Program-made: the position numbers and the translations under genes | The notes under the pieces: generated by a model | What the model saw: the letters and a program-made list of their open reading frames with translations, nothing else | Database searches by the model: none | What the model was told of the DNA's origin: nothing | Part shown: positions 2,652 to 33,267 of the stretch, piece by piece | Position numbering within the stretch: the stretch's first letter is position 1 | Layout of the letters: every line of letters begins with the position of its first letter | Assembly (NCBI GenBank): GCA_021372615.1 | Contig: JAJFUB010000113.1 | Coordinates: 1 to 64,000 of the forward strand | Direction of reading: 5' to 3' | Length of the DNA: 64,000 bases | DNA from: a bacterium | GTDB taxonomy: Bacteria; Armatimonadota; Zipacnadia; Zipacnadales; UBA11051

Positions 2652-2679
2652 GACTGTCTCGCCTGGGATGTTGGTGCCG

Positions 2680-4431
2680 TCAGATCACATCCATGTCGTC
2701 GTCGAGTTCAAGCAGATCGTCCGCGTAGTCCTCGTCCTCCGCGGGGGCCTCCTCGCCAACCGGCATGATGACCGGCAGCACGATCGGCCGGCGACCTGTC
2801 AGCTCAAACAGGAACTTGGCGACGGAGGCCTTGATGCGATCGTACAGCTCCTCCGGGTCGTCGCCGGCGTCCTCATGGAAGCTATCGAGTGTGCGAAGCA
2901 TGACCTCACGCGTCGCCTCGATCAGGTCCTGGGCCTGGTCCATGTAGACGAACCCGCGCGAGTAGACCTCCGGTGGCGCCAGCAGTCGCATGGTGTCGCG
3001 CTCGACGACGAGGACCGGCAGGAAGATCCCCTCAGCCGAGAGGATCTGACGGTCGTTGAGCACGATGTCGCCCACATCGCCCACGCCCAGGCCATCCACA
3101 TTCACAGGTTCGGCCGGGACGTTCGCGGCGCGATAGCCCTTGCCGTTGCGGAACTCCACCGAGGCCCCGGCGTAGAGCACGAAGATGCGCTCGCGCGGCA
3201 GGCCCATATCACGGGCGAGATCGACGTACAAAACGAGATGGCGTTGGTCCCCATGGACCGGAATGGCGAACCGGGGCCGCGTGAGGGACAGCATGAGCTT
3301 GATCTCCTCACGGTACCCGTGGCCGGATACGTGCACGCCCTGGTCGCTGCCGTACACGACGCGCGCGCCCTCGGCGAACAGGTCGTTGATGACGCGCCAG
3401 ATCAGGGACTCATTGCCGGGGATGGCGCTGGCGCTCATCACGACGGTGTCGCCCGAGACAATGCGCACGTGGCGGTGCGAACCGCGCGCCATGCGCGCCA
3501 GGGCCGATAGCGGCTCGCCCTGGCTGCCGGTGGTGATGACGGTCACTTCGCGCGGGGGCAGTTCGTCAATGTCCCGCACATCCACCATGGCCTCGGGCGG
3601 CACGTGCAGGTAACCCAGTCGGGCCGCGACCCCGGTCAGGCGCTCCATGCTACGCCCGGTCACGGCGACCTTGCGGCCGCAGCCCATGGACTGGTCAATG
3701 ACTTGCTGGATGCGCCCGAGGTTCGAGGCGAAGGTGGTGATGATGACACGGCCCTGCGCATCGCGCAGCAGGTTGTGCAAGGTCTCGCCGACAACGCGCT
3801 CAGACGGGGAGTAGCCGGGGCGCTCGACATTGGTGCAGTCCGAGAGCAGGCACAGCAGGCCGTCCTCACCCATCCGCGCCAGCCGCTGGAAGTCCGGCCC
3901 GGGGCTGCCGATGGGTGTCTGGTCGAACTTGAAGTCGCCGGTGTGGAAGAGATCGCCCGCAGGGGTCCGGACGAACAGCCCCATGCCGTCGGGGATGCTG
4001 TGGCTGACGCGCACCAGCTCGATGTCGAAGTCCCCCATGCGCTCCGGTATGCCCGGCTCCATCTCGATCAGTTCGCTGCCCTCGACCGGATGGAACTCCT
4101 GCAGCTTGGCCTCCAGCAGACCGAGCGTCAGGCGCGTGCCGTAGACGCGGATGGGGATCTTCTCCATCAGATACGGCACAGCGCCCAGATGGTCTTCGTG
4201 ACCGTGGGTCAGCACGACGCCGGCGAACTGGTCGGCGTTCTGCAGCACGTAGGTCATGTCCGGGATGATGACGTCCACGCCGGGGTGCTGCTCGTCGGGG
4301 AACATCAGGCCGCAATCCACGGCAATCATGCAGCCCTGACGGGCCACGAGGGTCATGTTCTTGCCGATGTCGCCGGTGCCCCCCAGGGAGATGACCCGCA
4401 CCGCATCCTCAAAGCCCGCCAAGACGTCCAA
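2680..4431 (-). CDS. rnj: Ribonuclease J
   Basis: 583 residues, a metallo-beta-lactamase/beta-CASP ribonuclease for 5'-3' exonucleolytic and endonucleolytic RNA decay and rRNA processing. The zinc motif THGHEDHLG is near residue 75. The conserved start (VRVISLGGTGDIGKNM) and the late beta-CASP histidine motif AIPVHGDQRHL are present. The C-terminus is a short, very acidic tail (EDEDYADDLLELDDD), unlike the usual ordered C-terminal domain end. The start used is TTG at 4431, because it places the normal number of residues before VRVI and lies 6 bases after the upstream stop. It follows the uracil-DNA glycosylase gene in the same direction. Confidence 0.93.
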   Translation of the reverse strand: MDVLAGFEDAVRVISLGGTGDIGKNMTLVARQGCMIAVDCGLMFPDEQHPGVDVIIPDMTYVLQNADQFAGVVLTHGHEDHLGAVPYLMEKIPIRVYGTRLTLGLLEAKLQEFHPVEGSELIEMEPGIPERMGDFDIELVRVSHSIPDGMGLFVRTPAGDLFHTGDFKFDQTPIGSPGPDFQRLARMGEDGLLCLLSDCTNVERPGYSPSERVVGETLHNLLRDAQGRVIITTFASNLGRIQQVIDQSMGCGRKVAVTGRSMERLTGVAARLGYLHVPPEAMVDVRDIDELPPREVTVITTGSQGEPLSALARMARGSHRHVRIVSGDTVVMSASAIPGNESLIWRVINDLFAEGARVVYGSDQGVHVSGHGYREEIKLMLSLTRPRFAIPVHGDQRHLVLYVDLARDMGLPRERIFVLYAGASVEFRNGKGYRAANVPAEPVNVDGLGVGDVGDIVLNDRQILSAEGIFLPVLVVERDTMRLLAPPEVYSRGFVYMDQAQDLIEATREVMLRTLDSFHEDAGDDPEELYDRIKASVAKFLFELTGRRPIVLPVIMPVGEEAPAEDEDYADDLLELDDDMDVI

Positions 4432-4437
4432 CGTTGC

Positions 4438-5004
4438 TCACTCCGTCACTGACAGAAAGTTCTTCAGCCGCTGCATGTCCTGCACCAGCACCGCCTCGAG
4501 GCTCGGCTGGTGCAGCGCCGCGGCCGGATGGTAGAGCGGAACATAGGTGATTCCCTCGACTTCTTGCGGCACGCCGTGGACCTTGCCCATGGACGCGCCC
4601 GGCGACAGCAACGTGTGCGTGGCCGGCTTGCCCAGCAGGCAGATGACACGTGGCGTCAGGAGGGCGATCTGTGCGTCCAGGTAGGGTCGGCACGCGACGG
4701 CCTCCCCCGGCAGAGGGTCGCGGTTGCGCGGCGGACGACACTTCACGATGTTGGTGATGTAGATGTCCTCGCGGCGCAGTCCGGCCTGCGCCAGCAGCCG
4801 GTTGAGGAACTGCCCGGCGGCGCCCACGAAGGGTCGGCCACTGCGGTCCTCCTGCTCGCCGGGGCCCTCTCCGATGAACATGATGCGTGCGTTCACCGGC
4901 CCCTCACCCGGCACCGCCTGCGTGCGAGTGGACGCCAGAGCGCAGCGCCGGCACGTGGCGATCTCCTGACCGAGTTCGGCGAGCATGGCGGCTCTGTCAG
5001 CCAT
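4438..5004 (-). CDS. Type-4 (Fe-S) uracil-DNA glycosylase
   Basis: 188 residues. It matches family-4 UDGs, which excise uracil from DNA and carry a 4Fe-4S cluster. The N-terminal CRRC pair, PGEGP, the active-site motif GEGPGEQED, the Cys in NIVKCRPP, a further Cys in AVACRPYL and the late LYHPAA motif are all visible. A GGAG site lies 7 bases before the ATG, and 22 bases separate it from the dapA stop, so it is probably co-transcribed with dapA and the RNase J gene. Confidence 0.92.
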   Translation of the reverse strand: MADRAAMLAELGQEIATCRRCALASTRTQAVPGEGPVNARIMFIGEGPGEQEDRSGRPFVGAAGQFLNRLLAQAGLRREDIYITNIVKCRPPRNRDPLPGEAVACRPYLDAQIALLTPRVICLLGKPATHTLLSPGASMGKVHGVPQEVEGITYVPLYHPAAALHQPSLEAVLVQDMQRLKNFLSVTE

Positions 5005-5026
5005 GGCGACTCCGGAGCGACGGTGT

Positions 5027-5914
5027 CTAGACCAGCCCGAGGCCCTCGCACGCCTGCCGTATGGTGGCGGTATCGCTGTCGGAGGCCGGCACCAGCGGCA
5101 GCCGGAGACCCCCGACCGGGAAGCCGATGATCTCCAGCCCGCGCTTCACGCAGGGGGGGTTGCCGGAGGCCAGGAAGCAGGCCTTGACGATGGGGATGAG
5201 CGACTGGTGCGTCCGCGCGGCCGCCGCCACGTCCCCGGCCTGGAACTGGCGGATCATCTCCGCGATCTGCTTGCCGGCCAGGTGAGAGGCAACGCTGATC
5301 ACACCGACGCAGCCGACCGCGAGCATCGGCAGAGTCAGCATGTCCTCGCCCGAGTACACCGTGAAGCCCTCCGGGGCACCGGCGCAGATCACACTGATCT
5401 GCTCCAGGTCGCCACTGGCTTCCTTGATCGCTACGATGTTGCTGACCTCACTGGCCAGGCGCAGCACGGTGGCGGCCTCGATGTTCTTGCCGGTGCGAGC
5501 CGGGACGTTATAGAGGATGACCGGCAGGTCCGTCACCGCGGCGACGGCCTTGAAGTGCTCGTAGAAGCCGGCCTGCGAGGGCTTGTTGTAGTAGGGCCCG
5601 GTGAGCATGACGCCATCAAGGCCCAGGTCGGCCACGGCTTGCGTGAGCTCGATGCTGTCGGCGGTGTCGTTGTTGCCGGTGCCGGCGATGACAGTGGCGG
5701 TCTGGCCGACTGCCTCCTCCACGACGCGGAACAGATCGAGCTTCTCTTGCGTGGTTGTCGTTGGCGCCTCACCGGTGGTGCCGGCCACGACGATGCCGTC
5801 CGAGCCGTTCTCCACCAGCATGACAGCCAGTTGCGCAGCACGATCCAGATCAACGCGCAGCTCCGCGTCGAAGGGTGTCACCATTGCCGTCAGTACGTTG
5901 CCGAAGCCAGCCAT
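5027..5914 (-). CDS. dapA: 4-hydroxy-tetrahydrodipicolinate synthase
   Basis: 295 residues, TIM-barrel aldolase condensing pyruvate with aspartate semialdehyde in lysine and diaminopimelate synthesis (cytoplasm). The family start GNVLTAMVTPF, the GTTGEAPT phosphate loop, the active-site Tyr of LTGPYYNKPSQ, the YNVPARTG motif and the Schiff-base Lys in VAIKEASG are present. I use the ATG at 5914 rather than 5971, because AAGGAGG lies 12 bases upstream and the protein then starts at the normal place. Confidence 0.95.
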   Translation of the reverse strand: MAGFGNVLTAMVTPFDAELRVDLDRAAQLAVMLVENGSDGIVVAGTTGEAPTTTTQEKLDLFRVVEEAVGQTATVIAGTGNNDTADSIELTQAVADLGLDGVMLTGPYYNKPSQAGFYEHFKAVAAVTDLPVILYNVPARTGKNIEAATVLRLASEVSNIVAIKEASGDLEQISVICAGAPEGFTVYSGEDMLTLPMLAVGCVGVISVASHLAGKQIAEMIRQFQAGDVAAAARTHQSLIPIVKACFLASGNPPCVKRGLEIIGFPVGGLRLPLVPASDSDTATIRQACEGLGLV

Positions 5915-5977
5915 CTCAGCTATGTTCCTCCTTGGGCAGGTGCGCCCGCTCAGCAGCGAGAGCATGAGCATACACGA

Positions 5978-6009
5978 TTCTTCCTCACGGGGGAAGAACC
6001 CTTCTTCCC
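5978..6009 (-). promoter_or_regulatory. Competing hairpins in dapA leader
   Basis: GGGAAGAA (5991-5998) can pair either with TTCTTCCC (6002-6009, loop of 3) or with TTCTTCC (5978-5984, loop of 7). The two pairings are mutually exclusive and lie about 65-95 bases before the dapA start on the transcript. This is the layout of a transcription or translation attenuator, but there is no T-run, so function is a guess. Confidence 0.3.
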
Positions 6010-6070
6010 GGCGAGTGTCATCGGGAGGCGTGGGCCAAGGGGGGGACGAGAAGGCTGCCGGGGAAGACGA

Positions 6071-6095
6071 CGCCGCCGAAGCCTTCTCGGCGGCG
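6071..6095. other. Stable GC-rich hairpin
   Basis: CGCCGCCGA (6071-6079) pairs with TCGGCGGCG (6087-6095) across a 7-base loop. It lies between the H1-like gene terminator and dapA. A second-stage terminator or a repeat remnant are both possible. Confidence 0.4.
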
Positions 6096-6172
6096 CATGG
6101 GAACGTCTACTGCTCTACGGAATGGCCCTCACGCATTGCCCGCTTCTACTCGGCGCCCCGGTCGGGGGTCGG

Positions 6173-6207
6173 CCTGCGCAGAGCCCAGGGCCCGGGCTCT
6201 GCGCAGG
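6173..6207 (-). terminator. Terminator hairpin of H1-like gene
   Basis: A perfect 14-bp stem: CCTGCGCAGAGCCC (6173-6186) against its complement (6194-6207), with a 7-base loop. It begins 11 bases past the stop of the H1-like gene. There is no U-run, as is common for terminators in very GC-rich genomes. Confidence 0.6.
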
Positions 6208-6217
6208 CCCGGCAGGA

Positions 6218-6451
6218 CTACTTCCTCTTCGGTGCGGCCTTCTTCGGTGCGGCCTTCTTCGGTGCAGCCTTCTTCGGCGCGGCCTTCTTCGGTGCGGCCT
6301 TCTTCGGTGCGGCCTTCTTCGGTGCGGCCTTCTTCGGCGCGGCCTTCTTCGGTGCAGCCTTCTTCGGTGCCGCCTTCTTCGGCGCGGCCTTCTTCGGTGC
6401 AGCCTTCTTTGGCGCGGCCTTCTTAGCCGCCGCTGCGCAGCACTTGGCCAT
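6218..6451 (-). CDS. Histone H1-like (AAPKK)n basic protein
   Basis: 77 residues: MAKCCAAAAKK, then twelve AAPKK repeats and a final AAPKRK. It resembles the Lys/Ala/Pro-rich tails of eukaryotic H1 and bacterial Hc1/AlgP-like proteins, and very probably binds DNA or RNA by charge. It has no other domain, unlike most bacterial relatives. AAGGAG lies 10 bases before the ATG, a near-consensus promoter drives it and a 14-bp hairpin ends it, so it is a single-gene unit. The two cysteines near the N-terminus are unexplained. The opposite strand reads as a Phe/Ala repeat only because of the repeat. Confidence 0.85.
   Translation of the reverse strand: MAKCCAAAAKKAAPKKAAPKKAAPKKAAPKKAAPKKAAPKKAAPKKAAPKKAAPKKAAPKKAAPKKAAPKKAAPKRK
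6239..6418 (-). repeat. 12 x 15-bp coding tandem repeat
   Basis: Twelve 15-base units (GGTGCGGCCTTCTTC on the plus strand, with third-base variants such as GGCGCGG or GGTGCAG) encode AAPKK. Such arrays change copy number by slippage, so length probably varies between strains. Confidence 0.85.
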
Positions 6452-6506
6452 CGAAGTACGCTCCTTTATGAGAGGTAGGCCGATTGCGGCAAGCGTGTGT
6501 GACTGT

Positions 6507-25381: not shown

Positions 25382-26455
25382 ATGGCAAAGTGTCGCATTG
25401 GCATCATTGGCATCGGAACGTTCGGCATCAACCACCTCCGCTGCTTCCGGCAGCTCGAGTACATCGGCGCGGCCGAGCTGGTCGCCGCCGCCGACCTCAA
25501 CGAGCAACTGCTGGAGGAGCGCCGCCAAGAGTTCACCTTCAAGCCGTACAAAGACTACAAGGAGATGATCGAGAAGGAGAACCTGGACGGCGTCACCATC
25601 GTCACCCCGGACCCCTTCCATCATGACATCGTCATGCACTGCGCCGAGCAGGGCGTGCACATGCTGTGTGAGAAGCCGCTGGATGTGACGGTCGAGGGCT
25701 GCGTCAAGATGACCGAGGCCGCCGAGAAGGCCGGCGTGCTGCTGCAGGTGGACTTCCACAAGCGCTACGACGAGTACCACATCGCCATGAAGCAGAAGAT
25801 TGACGCCGGCGATCTGGGCAAGATCCAGTACGGCTACAGCCACATGGAGGACCGCATCGAGGTCCCCAAGGACTGGTTCCCCGGCTGGGCGGGCAAGTCG
25901 TCACCGGGCTGGTTCCTGGGCATCCACTTCTTCGACCTGGCGCGCTTCCTGATGGGCGCCAACGGCGTCGCCGTCTGGGCCACGGGCTGCAAGGGCCGCC
26001 TGTCGGGCCTCGGCGTGGACACCTACGACTCGATCTCCTCCAAGGTCCTGTTCGACAATGGCGCCACAGTGGCGTTCGACAACTCGTGGATCCTGCCGTA
26101 TGAGTTCGAGGCCGTCGTGAACCAGGGCATCCGCCTGGTCGGCGAGCTCGGGATGCTCGAATGCGACAGCCAGGACCGCGGCACGATCACCTGCTGCACC
26201 AATGACAAGCCGGGCATGCAGACCCACAACAAGAGCTTCCTGCGGCAGCGCTTCGACAAGCAGGGGCGGGAGATCTGGGACGGTTACGGCATGGAGTCCA
26301 TCGCGGACTTCGCCTACAACCTCAACGTGCTGCTGGACGGCGGGAAGATCAGCGGCCTGGGCGCCTACCCGAGCGGCCAGGACGGCATCGAGGCCACGAA
26401 GATCGCCGCCGGCGTCCACAAGAGCCTGGAGACGGGCGGGATTGTGGAGCTGTAG
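25382..26455 (+). CDS. Gfo/Idh/MocA family oxidoreductase
   Basis: 357 residues. The N-terminal Rossmann motif IGIIGIGTFGINHLRCF and the hallmark CEKPLDVTVEG (EKP) identify an NAD(P)-dependent sugar or inositol dehydrogenase. The C-terminal half carries the substrate domain with GIHFFDLARFLMG. GGGAGG is placed 10 bases before the ATG. The substrate is unknown. Confidence 0.92.
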   Translation: MAKCRIGIIGIGTFGINHLRCFRQLEYIGAAELVAAADLNEQLLEERRQEFTFKPYKDYKEMIEKENLDGVTIVTPDPFHHDIVMHCAEQGVHMLCEKPLDVTVEGCVKMTEAAEKAGVLLQVDFHKRYDEYHIAMKQKIDAGDLGKIQYGYSHMEDRIEVPKDWFPGWAGKSSPGWFLGIHFFDLARFLMGANGVAVWATGCKGRLSGLGVDTYDSISSKVLFDNGATVAFDNSWILPYEFEAVVNQGIRLVGELGMLECDSQDRGTITCCTNDKPGMQTHNKSFLRQRFDKQGREIWDGYGMESIADFAYNLNVLLDGGKISGLGAYPSGQDGIEATKIAAGVHKSLETGGIVEL

Positions 26456-26466
26456 GCGCTTCGCGC

Positions 26467-26495
26467 TTGCATCCGGTGGTCCTCGCGCGTACAAT
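26467..26495 (+). promoter_or_regulatory. Promoter of Ntn-hydrolase/Doc cassette
   Basis: TTGCAT (26467-26472), 17-base spacer, TACAAT (26490-26495, 5 of 6 consensus). It lies 12 bases after the oxidoreductase stop and about 32 before the first cassette gene. Confidence 0.5.
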
Positions 26496-26527
26496 TGGCA
26501 CGTGCAACCAACTGACGGGGGCGTGAC

Positions 26528-27238
26528 ATGAGCCTTGCAGTGGCGCTGGAAGGGGCTGACGGGATTGTCCTCGCGGCGGACAGCCGGGGAACCATCGGCG
26601 ACCCCCGAGGCCTAACAGCTATCAATGACTTGCAGGTGAAGCTGTTCCGGCTGACGCGGTTCGCCGGAGTATGCACGTATGGCTCAGGCGAACTGGGCGC
26701 TGAAGTCTGCCACCAGTTACAGCGAGTGGTGAGTGCCGTTGACGAGGGGAACCAGTCCGTGGATGGCCTCGAAGCCGCTGTTAGGCAGACGGCTCGGAAG
26801 CTATACGACGACTGGTTCGAGAAGTACCCGCCCCCCAACCGCCCCACCCTTGGTTTGCTGCTGGGGGGGGTAACGAGTGCGGGCACGGCTAGGGCGGTGC
26901 TGTTCCCGAGCGAACTGGACTTCGCGCCGCATCCTGCAGTTACCGGGTTCATGGCAGGGGGGGTCCCCCAGTATGCGACTTATCTGGTGCATCGCTTCTA
27001 CGACAAGAGCAAGCCTGTCACGGCACTGGCGAGTCTCGCCGAGTACATCATCAACGAGACGGCATCGCAGGATCCCAAGGTCGGCGGAGCTGTCAAGATT
27101 GCCCTGATCACTGCCGATAGGGGCTATGAGGAACTCTCCCCTCAGGCAGTAGAGAACATAAGGTGCCGTAACGAGTCCGCAAGTTCGGCATTGCGCGAGT
27201 CATTCTACAGGACGGGAGGTGACAACAGTGGCCTATAA
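26528..27238 (+). CDS. Proteasome beta-like Ntn hydrolase
   Basis: 236 residues. The start MSLAVALEGADGIVLAADSR aligns with 20S-beta/HslV subunits. After Met removal Ser1 would be the nucleophile, Asp17 and Arg19 are in place, and a Lys appears at about 37 (VKLF) where the proteasome has Lys33. A GSGELGA segment follows, as in the fold. There is no propeptide and the nucleophile is Ser rather than Thr. No AAA+ unfoldase lies nearby, so it is not standard HslVU or 20S. GC content is visibly lower than in flanking genes. It overlaps the next small gene by 11 bases. Peptidase activity is inferred only. Confidence 0.7.
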   Translation: MSLAVALEGADGIVLAADSRGTIGDPRGLTAINDLQVKLFRLTRFAGVCTYGSGELGAEVCHQLQRVVSAVDEGNQSVDGLEAAVRQTARKLYDDWFEKYPPPNRPTLGLLLGGVTSAGTARAVLFPSELDFAPHPAVTGFMAGGVPQYATYLVHRFYDKSKPVTALASLAEYIINETASQDPKVGGAVKIALITADRGYEELSPQAVENIRCRNESASSALRESFYRTGGDNSGL

Positions 27239-27455
27239 CGGACATAGCACCCCATCGCCCCGTGAGGGTATCGCTGCTACAATCAGCCAGCAGTTTACGC
27301 CTGACATCAGACGGGCCTTCGTGCCGTATATCCCACCGCCCGTGATCGCGCTCAGCCCGGGGCATTGCGCGCCGCCAAGCGCCAGCGAGGATGAACTCAT
27401 CGACGGCATCATGGAGCGGCACATCGGTGCTTTCCGCCGCTTGGCCCGGCGGTGA
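27228..27455 (+). CDS. Small protein between Ntn hydrolase and Doc (candidate antitoxin)
   Basis: 75 residues from GTG at 27228, preceded by GGGAGGTGA. It overlaps the hydrolase gene by 11 bases and ends 9 bases before the doc gene. The sequence is Pro-rich in the middle (YIPPPVIALSPGH) with a helical, basic end (DELIDGIMERHIGAFRRLARR). It shows no Phd/YefM DNA-binding region. Its position suggests an antitoxin or a bridge between the two partners, but I recognise no family. Confidence 0.6.
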   Translation: MAYNGHSTPSPREGIAATISQQFTPDIRRAFVPYIPPPVIALSPGHCAPPSASEDELIDGIMERHIGAFRRLARR

Positions 27456-27464
27456 TCTCCCGCC

Positions 27465-27842
27465 ATGGAGATCATGCCACCCGAGTTCGTCCACAAGATA
27501 CACGATGCGGTGATTGAGCGGACCGGCGGAGCGCACGGGTGCATCAATCCTGTGTACGTTGAAACGGCAGTACAGCGCCCCCTGACGGCATTTGGGGGCG
27601 TTGAGCTTTTCCCTACTGTGTTCGCGAAGGCCGCAGCGATCGCTCACTCGATCGCTACAACCCATCCATTCGCAGACGGGAACAAGCGGACAGCGCTATT
27701 CTGTGCAGCAGCGGTGCTGGCGCAGGCGGGAATGGTACTGATAGCAGACGATGAAGTACTCGAGCAGACAATGGTGGGGTTGGCCACGAGCCAGATGAGT
27801 CTGGCGGAGTTCGCTGCCTTTCTTGAGCAGCATGCGGTGTAG
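27465..27842 (+). CDS. doc: Doc-type (Fic domain) toxin
   Basis: 125 residues. The Fic signature HPFADGNKR lies at residues 67-75, in the Doc-like form, with the preceding helix AKAAAIAHSIATT. In P1 Doc this fold phosphorylates EF-Tu and arrests translation, and its partner is Phd. Here the gene just upstream does not resemble Phd. A second in-frame ATG at 27474 is possible. Confidence 0.88.
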   Translation: MEIMPPEFVHKIHDAVIERTGGAHGCINPVYVETAVQRPLTAFGGVELFPTVFAKAAAIAHSIATTHPFADGNKRTALFCAAAVLAQAGMVLIADDEVLEQTMVGLATSQMSLAEFAAFLEQHAV

Positions 27843-27926
27843 CCCTCGCGCAGTCGAGGCACACGTCAGCGCCGCACCAGTACCCGACCGGCATACGCAG
27901 GTCTCTCCCCCACTCACGACGAACCA

Positions 27927-27953
27927 AGGGGCGCACCCATCCGGTGCGCCCCT
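27927..27953 (+). terminator. Terminator closing the Ntn/Doc cassette
   Basis: AGGGGCGCACC (27927-27937) pairs perfectly with GGTGCGCCCCT (27943-27953), loop CATCC, followed by GTTGCTTTCC. It lies 85 bases after doc and 21 before the next gene. Confidence 0.65.
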
Positions 27954-27974
27954 GTTGCTTTCCCGGAGGCTGGC

Positions 27975-28643
27975 ATGCCCTGCAGTGATGGCGTCTTCTC
28001 GGTTGACTGGTCGCGCTATCGCCTGGTGGACCTCTCGTACACGGTTGCGCCCCCCGGCACCGACGAGCGCCCCTTCATCACCGAGCGCGGCCTGCTGGCT
28101 GACGACAGCTTCATGCACCATGTGCGCACGCACACCCACGTGGGCACCCATGTGGAGGCCCCGGCGCACTTCTTCGAGGGCGGACGCACCGTCGTGGACT
28201 TCCCGCTCGAGAGCTTCCTGGGCCGCGCCGTGCTGCTGAGCGTGCCCGTGGCCGCCGACTGCGCCCCGCTGACCGCCGCCGACTGTGAGCGTCTTCTCGG
28301 CGGTCTCATGCAGCCGGGCGACATCGTCCTGTGCCGCAACGCGGACATGCCGAGCCGTACGGCGCCGCAGACTGCGTGGCCTTCGCTGGCAGCCGAGTCC
28401 GCGCAGTGGCTGGCGGACCGGCAGGCCAAACTGGTCGGCTTCGACAACTACTTCCGGTTAGGGCGGGACATCCCCGAGGTCCGGCAGGTCCACGACATCC
28501 TGCTCTCGCGCGACATCTGCCTCATCGAGTTCCTCGACAACCTCGACGCTCTGACGCAACCTGTCTTCACCTTCATGTGCCTGCCCTTCAGGGCCGCCAC
28601 CGACAGCGCCTGGGGCCGGGCCGTAGCCATCGAGCGGCGCTGA
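27975..28643 (+). CDS. Cyclase/kynurenine formamidase-like metal hydrolase
   Basis: 222 residues. The family motif HTHVGTHVEAPAHF gives the metal-binding histidines and the Asp/Glu pair of the H-x-G-T-H-x-[DE]-x-P-x-H pattern. VDLSYTVAPP starts the domain. GGAGG lies 6 bases before the ATG. The substrate (formylkynurenine or another amide/lactone) is unknown. The methyltransferase begins 2 bases after its stop. Confidence 0.88.
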   Translation: MPCSDGVFSVDWSRYRLVDLSYTVAPPGTDERPFITERGLLADDSFMHHVRTHTHVGTHVEAPAHFFEGGRTVVDFPLESFLGRAVLLSVPVAADCAPLTAADCERLLGGLMQPGDIVLCRNADMPSRTAPQTAWPSLAAESAQWLADRQAKLVGFDNYFRLGRDIPEVRQVHDILLSRDICLIEFLDNLDALTQPVFTFMCLPFRAATDSAWGRAVAIERR

Positions 28644-32485: not shown

Positions 32486-32590
32486 CCCTGCTCGGCAGCA
32501 CGGTTGCGAACGCGGGGCGCGGCACTCAGCCGTGCCCCGCTTGACTCCCGAGCCGGCACGGAATACGATTTGCATGGAGGGAAGGAGCGG

Positions 32591-32842
32591 ATGGTGTCTC
32601 CCATGGCGACCGCAACAACAATGAGTGCACGGGTGGAGGGCGGGCGACTGGTACTGCCGCCGGAGGCCCTGGACGAACTCGGCGTACACGACGGCGAGAT
32701 GGTGCAGGTTGTCATCAGCGCCGAGGGTCTCACGATCCGCAGACCCCGGCGCCGCGACCTGAGCAAGTTCGTGGGTATTGCGCGGACGGAGGGTCTTCCC
32801 CGCACGACCGACGAGTACATGCGCGAGATCAGGCCCCGATGA
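32591..32842 (+). CDS. AbrB/SpoVT-family antitoxin (VapB-like)
   Basis: 83 residues. The swapped-hairpin domain SARVEGGRLVLPPEALDELG (from residue about 11) is followed by VQVVISAEGLTIRRPRRR, and the tail should embrace the toxin. AAGGAG before ATG 32591 fixes the start. It overlaps the PIN toxin gene by 4 bases (ATGA). Confidence 0.85.
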   Translation: MVSPMATATTMSARVEGGRLVLPPEALDELGVHDGEMVQVVISAEGLTIRRPRRRDLSKFVGIARTEGLPRTTDEYMREIRPR

Positions 32843-33267
32843 CCTACGCCCTCGACACTTCGGTGCTCCTGGACGTGTTCATGAACGATCCGACCTGGGT
32901 GGGGCCGTCGCAGCGCCTGCTAGAGAGCTTTGGGCCCGACGATGTGGCTATCGTCTGCCCTGAGGTCTACGCCGAGTTGGTGCCGTATTTCCCTCTGCCG
33001 GGCTCCCTGGACGTCCACCTGCGGCAACTATCCATAAACGTCATCCCTACCGATGAGCAGGTCGCCCGTGTGGCCGGTCCCCTGTGGGCCCGCTATCGTC
33101 GCGCCGGAGGCCCTCGCACCCGCATCGTCACCGACTTCATCGTGGCGGCCCATGCCCTCGTCCACGCGGACGCGCTCGTGACCCGTGACGACGGCTTCTC
33201 TCGCCAGCACTTCGCGGAGCTGCAGGTCATCGCCCCTGCGCCGCCGGACGACGCTCCGGCACACTGA
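32839..33267 (+). CDS. PIN-domain toxin (VapC-like ribonuclease)
   Basis: 142 residues. The first PIN Asp is in YALDTSVLLDVF, the Glu in PEVYAELVPYF and a late Asp in RIVTDFIVAAHALVHADALVTRDDGF. VapC toxins cleave tRNA or rRNA and are held by the cognate antitoxin encoded upstream. The ATGA overlap couples the pair. Confidence 0.88.
   Translation: MTYALDTSVLLDVFMNDPTWVGPSQRLLESFGPDDVAIVCPEVYAELVPYFPLPGSLDVHLRQLSINVIPTDEQVARVAGPLWARYRRAGGPRTRIVTDFIVAAHALVHADALVTRDDGFSRQHFAELQVIAPAPPDDAPAH

Follow-up and report, generated by a model that had tools for sequence, protein, structure and literature searches.

A proteasome-like Ntn hydrolase gene in a predicted three-component toxin-antitoxin operon of Armatimonadota with a bipartite antitoxin and exchangeable toxins

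Doc toxins are known to phosphorylate EF-Tu, and the antitoxins of type II systems are normally said to be broken down by general proteases of the host, Lon and Clp for example. More elaborate arrangements have been described in which a third component or a versatile antitoxin takes part. In TAC systems the antitoxin carries a transferable segment that couples the system to a third protein (PMC5105189), while in Panacea one antitoxin domain serves many toxins (PMC8832971). In a separate line of work a survey that described 22 new proteasome-like families saw nothing in their genomic context that hinted at function (PMC8665760), and in the literature that we searched no paper links proteasome homologues or Ntn hydrolases with toxin-antitoxin operons.

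Here we describe a cassette in a 64,000-nucleotide stretch of DNA from a bacterium of the Armatimonadota (contig JAJFUB010000113.1; the whole stretch is called the window below) that encodes, in this order, a predicted proteasome-like Ntn hydrolase, a small protein that we read as a bipartite antitoxin, and a predicted Doc toxin. With phd-doc and composite Doc systems such as tasA-tasB (mazE-doc) it has in common a Doc protein carrying HPFxDGNKR, an antitoxin gene just upstream, a Phd-type tail and an exchangeable antitoxin N-terminal part, but its antitoxin lacks a recognised Phd, AbrB or other DNA-binding domain and a gene for a proteasome-like peptidase precedes the pair. It resembles TAC (SecB-like chaperone, ChAD) in its three genes, in an additional piece of the antitoxin, interpreted as the place where the third protein docks, and in the varying toxin families, although the third protein here is an Ntn peptidase homologue encoded first in the operon and the segment is N-terminal, not C-terminal. 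As in Panacea (DUF4065), one module on the antitoxin side accompanies many unrelated toxins, in bacteria as in phages; there, however, a single domain neutralises all toxins, whereas in the present loci the tail varies from toxin to toxin, and what stays constant is the peptidase together with the antitoxin N-terminal part. TAC is the nearest mechanistic parallel and Panacea the nearest evolutionary one, yet the cassette is a member of neither because the SecB chaperone and DUF4065 are absent (DUF4065 gave no match in the antitoxins scanned). Its hydrolase shares with the proteasome-like homologues of Fuchs, Alva and Lupas 2021 (WPH, PMI, AAH, PPH and others) the fold, Thr1 or Ser1, the missing propeptide and phage mobility, and differs from those families in its gene neighbourhood, which includes a small partner downstream and, at ten loci, a toxin.

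The cassette is real. It occupies positions 26456..27974 (no strand assigned to the insertion as a whole), between a GFO/IDH oxidoreductase gene that ends at 26455 and a cyclase gene that starts at 27975. In G258, from the same family but another genus, the orthologous flanks (87% identical for the oxidoreductase gene and 64% for the cyclase gene) lie 63 bp apart as against 1519 bp in the window, so that the cassette is a discrete insertion or has been lost in G258. The initial annotation had described three overlapping or adjacent genes, less GC-rich than their surroundings, with a promoter of their own and a strong hairpin at the end, and most of this description holds. All three genes are on the + strand with neighbours overlapping or 9 bp apart, the GC content of the insertion is 61.9% compared to 67.5% for the window (as low a value is seen in only 0.2% of stretches of this size), and an intrinsic terminator hairpin with a perfect 11-bp stem, a 5-nt loop and a T-rich tail is found at 27927..27953 (+). 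The promoter fares less well; the weak promoter-like TTGCAT-17-TACAAT at 26467..26495 (+), read from the sequence, agrees with the consensus at 8 of 12 bases and was not picked up by a consensus scan. No operator-like inverted repeat was found upstream of the operon, a 9-bp direct repeat at 26470 and 27938 was judged likely to be due to chance, and the operon has no unfoldase gene. PADLOC, run on the cassette, gave for the hydrolase only a DrmC match (E=0.013) and for Doc matches to Fic domains. The window contains another toxin-antitoxin pair, of ordinary appearance, at 32504-33267 (+), in which a PIN-domain toxin (PF01850, 1.9e-11) is encoded behind a MazE/AbrB-like protein (PF04014, a weak match with E=0.014).

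The first gene, ntn (26528..27238, +), encodes a predicted proteasome-like Ntn hydrolase of 236 aa. It had been annotated as lacking a propeptide, and indeed Ser follows the initiator Met directly, with Asp18 and Lys38 downstream, giving Ser1, Asp17 and Lys37 in the mature protein once Met is removed. In the gene-encoded numbering Ser2, Asp18, Lys38 and Gly52 correspond to Thr1/Ser1, Asp17, Lys33 and the oxyanion Gly47; all four are conserved in alignment A5, and Ser2, Lys38 and Gly52 in A6, where some relatives have Glu in place of Asp18. In L204, L205, L207 and L219, part of the MSLG peptidase clade, Glu replaces Asp17 (LAAESR), which is unusual for a proteasome-like active site. The window protein scores 21.1 bits against Pfam PF00227, just under the 22.4 cut-off, which its relatives L002, L060 and L061 exceed, and a profile built from five relatives finds proteasome subunits in the PDB at E=1.5e-15. 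An AF2 model (pLDDT 87.1, pTM 0.85) is matched by Foldseek to Anbu (5nyw, E=1.5e-11) and to archaeal proteasome beta, and in VIA-align it superimposes on M. tuberculosis proteasome beta (3krd) with Z 26.1 and rmsd 2.5 over 212 residues, placing model residue 2 on Thr1. By this model the protein has a proteasome beta-like fold.

For the window hydrolase none of the curated subfamily models reaches its cut-off. As a single query it retrieved nothing in a scan of the genome contigs, nor did tblastn against plasmids and phages; a second PF00227 match elsewhere in its own genome is taken to be HslV. Pentatricopeptide proteins, which top a phmmer search of the hydrolase against the PDB, were discounted, since the matches are helical and of low complexity and the matching stretches do not hold up by themselves, and L062 (Natrialba) was set aside as an ordinary archaeal proteasome locus. 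Ser directly after the start codon is found also in G251 and G275 (both GTG-Ser), G263, G005, G205 and G227 and in the viral L215, L218, L219, L222 and L224, with Thr in other viral relatives.

The second gene (27228..27455, +) overlaps ntn by 11 nt, starts with GTG behind the Shine-Dalgarno sequence GGGAGG (27214-27219) and encodes a predicted bipartite antitoxin of 75 aa; an alternative GTG at 27219 would give 78 aa. The initial annotation held that this protein replaces Phd and has no known fold. That stands for the greater part of the protein, as the 78-aa frame has no match in Pfam and NCBIfam at E up to 1, the Phd/YefM DNA-binding fold included, and tblastn finds no relative of the 78-aa protein in 291 genomes. 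A lack of any relation to Phd is in part wrong, since the tail is Phd-like. The last 18 residues, IDGIMERHIGAFRRLARR (27399..27452, +), align without gaps to the end of Salmonella Phd (FAAIMAVHGNELRELADK, residues 56-73), the best match of 7234 C-termini compared, and form a putative Doc-neutralising tail. At the positions of the six Phd hot spots, F56, I59, M60, H63, L67 and L70 (PMC9207808), the window tail has I, I, M, H, F and L. The antitoxin of G275, which carries the nearest Doc relative found, ends in VDGLMGKNDDLMRRLAQR, and the two tails, with a score of 59 where the next-best of 7590 control ORFs reaches 36, are, by sequence comparison, homologous. Further upstream, QQFTPDIRRAFVPYIPPPVIALSPGH (27288..27365, +) is a candidate Ntn-docking segment that resembles the small protein downstream of the phage Ntn L058 (shuffle p 0.0025 and 0.005 in two runs), a match that is weak because it ranks only 7 of 7590 control ORFs; the notion of one motif common to all Ntn partners was dropped, the partners being too variable. 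Relations of the small protein were found only by position and by comparison of tails. None of the antitoxins tested matches a DNA-binding family, and the AF2 model of a related antitoxin shows no confident fold (pLDDT 49).

That the last gene (27465..27842, +) encodes a Fic/Doc toxin, as had been proposed, is borne out by matches of the 125-aa product to PF02661 (E=2.5e-15), to TIGR01550 over its cut-off and to phrog_577 (Doc-like toxin), and by the intact catalytic motif HPFADGNKR, followed by T, that is read from the translation at 27663..27689 (+). Its nearest relative found, in G275, is 48% identical. Doc is common in the phylum, with genes in 79 of 291 genomes. Most of these genes have other partners, and among the C-termini of such partners forms like AFRNLAK or EALTELAKW are often seen.

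In order to place the cassette, Ntn homologues and their neighbours were compared across 291 Armatimonadota genomes, 18 of which gave matches in a profile search, and in viral contigs. Ten peptidase-antitoxin-toxin loci were found, in five Armatimonadota genomes and four viral contigs and always in the same order, all from draft genomes (MAG) or viral contigs of which several are short (5-6 kb). The toxin is Doc in six (the window, G275, G263:C739, G005, L220 and L231, that is, four Armatimonadota genomes and two viral contigs), ParE/RelE in two (L219, ParE over the cut-off, and G263:C609, PF05016 at 5e-4, slightly under it), VapC in one (G205, PF01850, 1.7e-5) and MazF in one (the viral L224, 1.2e-10). 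At E below 1e-11 the phylum has ten compact Ntn loci, of which six include a toxin and three lack one; the remaining locus is truncated by a contig end. Doc lies within 1.2 kb downstream of four of 26 Ntn matches where ∼0.001 would be expected from 87 Doc matches in 1.1 Gb, a total length that is an estimate. The association of hydrolase and doc on which the initial annotation would have stood or fallen is thus recurrent, with six Doc loci and four more that have ParE/RelE, VapC or MazF, and the small protein is not spurious; several homologues nonetheless have no toxin (G251, G227, L214, L215, L218, L222 and many, indeed most, phage loci), so that the peptidase must have a function without one. 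The operon order, its recurrence with four toxin families, the bipartite antitoxin and the conserved catalytic residues are supported by these sequence comparisons, and the architecture is very probably that of a three-component toxin-antitoxin system.

Two of the bacterial copies have neighbours that merit mention. In G275 (L174/L055, about 3100-6500, minus strand) the genes upstream of the cassette look phage-structural when read by eye, which suggests that this copy sits in a prophage. In G227 (L207, about 2667-4297, minus strand) a toxin-less Ntn with Ser1 is followed by a 63-aa partner, an 86-aa basic protein and a protein that, to judge from its sequence, resembles a serine protease of the ClpP/SppA type.

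The modular nature of the antitoxin emerges from pairwise comparison of 18 small partners, for which 9 of 153 pairs have a shuffle p below 0.01 compared to 1.5 expected. The strongest N-terminal matches join L219 (RelE) with G205 (VapC), L219 with G227 (no toxin) and G205 with L218 (no toxin), each with p 0.0025, and the strongest tail match, at the same p, joins the window with G275, both linked to Doc. Phd-like tails (p below 0.01) are seen in three of the six Doc-linked antitoxins and in none of the 12 others. One clade of the peptidase tree contains ParE/RelE, VapC, MazF and toxin-less members, and well-supported branches of the tree force at least three gains or losses of Doc. It would appear that loci of one peptidase clade can have antitoxin N-terminal parts in common even where their toxins differ or are missing, and that the tail of an antitoxin goes with its toxin.

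Longer relatives of the hydrolase (phrog_5990, about 410 aa) are common in phages and in Rhizobium plasmids. Close behind the Ntn gene, no more than 35 nt from its stop, an ORF of 30-75 aa begins in 79 of 87 viral loci, compared to 35 of 171 control genes; the Fisher p of 5e-29 is optimistic because the loci are not all independent. In viral contigs L089-L168 an Ntn of the phrog_5990 type is nearly always followed by a fast-evolving gene of 34-69 aa, with subfamilies such as ELREWQKxFNPS and LKQAYERTQPKSVNDFF. Four Rhizobium and Mesorhizobium plasmids (L066, L068, L069, L071) carry a long relative (about 360-480 aa) near a multiubiquitin / ThiF E1 operon, which in one plasmid has an annotated DUF6527, and a link between proteasome homologues and bacterial ubiquitin-like systems is possible in these plasmids. 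Divergent Ntn proteins are present in temperate phages of P. aeruginosa (L247, L248), including LESphi2 of strain LESB58, where the protein is annotated as proteasome subunit beta; no small partner or toxin was recognised beside the Ntn in either.

Taken as a whole, the locus is best explained, and on balance probably so, as a three-component type II-like toxin-antitoxin operon with a proteasome-like peptidase, a bipartite antitoxin and an exchangeable toxin. Methionine aminopeptidase would free Ser1 of the hydrolase, the N-terminal part of the antitoxin would dock on the peptidase, a step that we consider quite likely, and the tail would fold onto Doc and so prevent phosphorylation of EF-Tu. 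The hydrolase would cleave or degrade the disordered antitoxin without the help of an unfoldase, and the antitoxin would owe its short life to the operon's own peptidase and not to host Lon/ClpXP. Doc would then be set free when peptidase activity changes or new synthesis is blocked, and would stop translation through EF-Tu. That the peptidase works against the antitoxin by cleavage is a direction that we infer and put forward tentatively, as the likeliest of three; the weights that we attach here to cleavage and below to protection and delivery are judgements, not measurements.

Peptidase addiction, with a hydrolase that protects its partner, would turn the logic around. The hydrolase would be a scaffold that shields the antitoxin through its N-terminal part in the way that SecB-like chaperones do in TAC, and its loss or inhibition would leave an unstable antitoxin and free toxin. 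The anatomy of TAC is indeed matched, with a third gene and an antitoxin to which a transferable segment has been added (PMC5105189), the toxins are interchangeable, and protection would account for the persistence of the segment in toxin-less partners. A scaffold would not need catalytic residues, however, and these are conserved throughout; a small partner downstream is, moreover, common in phage Ntn loci that lack a toxin as well (79 of 87). We regard protection as unlikely. Somewhat less likely again is delivery, in which the small protein links toxin and peptidase so that the peptidase inactivates the toxin, and antitoxin and peptidase together form the antidote. A small protein made of a toxin-specific tail and an N-terminal part found also in toxin-less Ntn partners could serve as a general adaptor for the peptidase, but the operon lacks an unfoldase, an Ntn chamber would handle a folded toxin poorly, and in the Phd system a tail of this type is by itself enough to neutralise Doc (PMC9207808).

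It could also be that there is no functional link and that a Doc antitoxin-toxin pair simply landed beside a mobile Ntn gene. Both are mobile accessory genes and many Doc genes of the phylum have ordinary partners and no Ntn. Chance association is nevertheless improbable in view of ten loci with the same order and with genes overlapping or close, at least three changes of the Doc link together with three other toxin families, and N-terminal parts common to partners of different toxins.

With the preferred reading, that of a peptidase acting on a modular antitoxin, an operon that brings along a proteasome homologue would be self-contained in the control of its toxin. For some of the 22 new proteasome-like families (PMC8665760), the conserved small partner and the association with toxins provide a genomic context. 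More speculatively, the cassettes may form a separate class of toxin-antitoxin system, a possibility that we hold a little more loosely than cleavage itself, in which the modular antitoxin is governed by a dedicated, proteasome-like peptidase, a new tail on the small partner of that peptidase makes almost any toxin controllable, and the toxin-less phage pairs of Ntn and small protein are the parent system. If true, this would give some orphan prokaryotic proteasome homologues a first testable role, and with an antitoxin of constant N-terminal part and changing tail the evolution of new toxin pairings would become directly testable.
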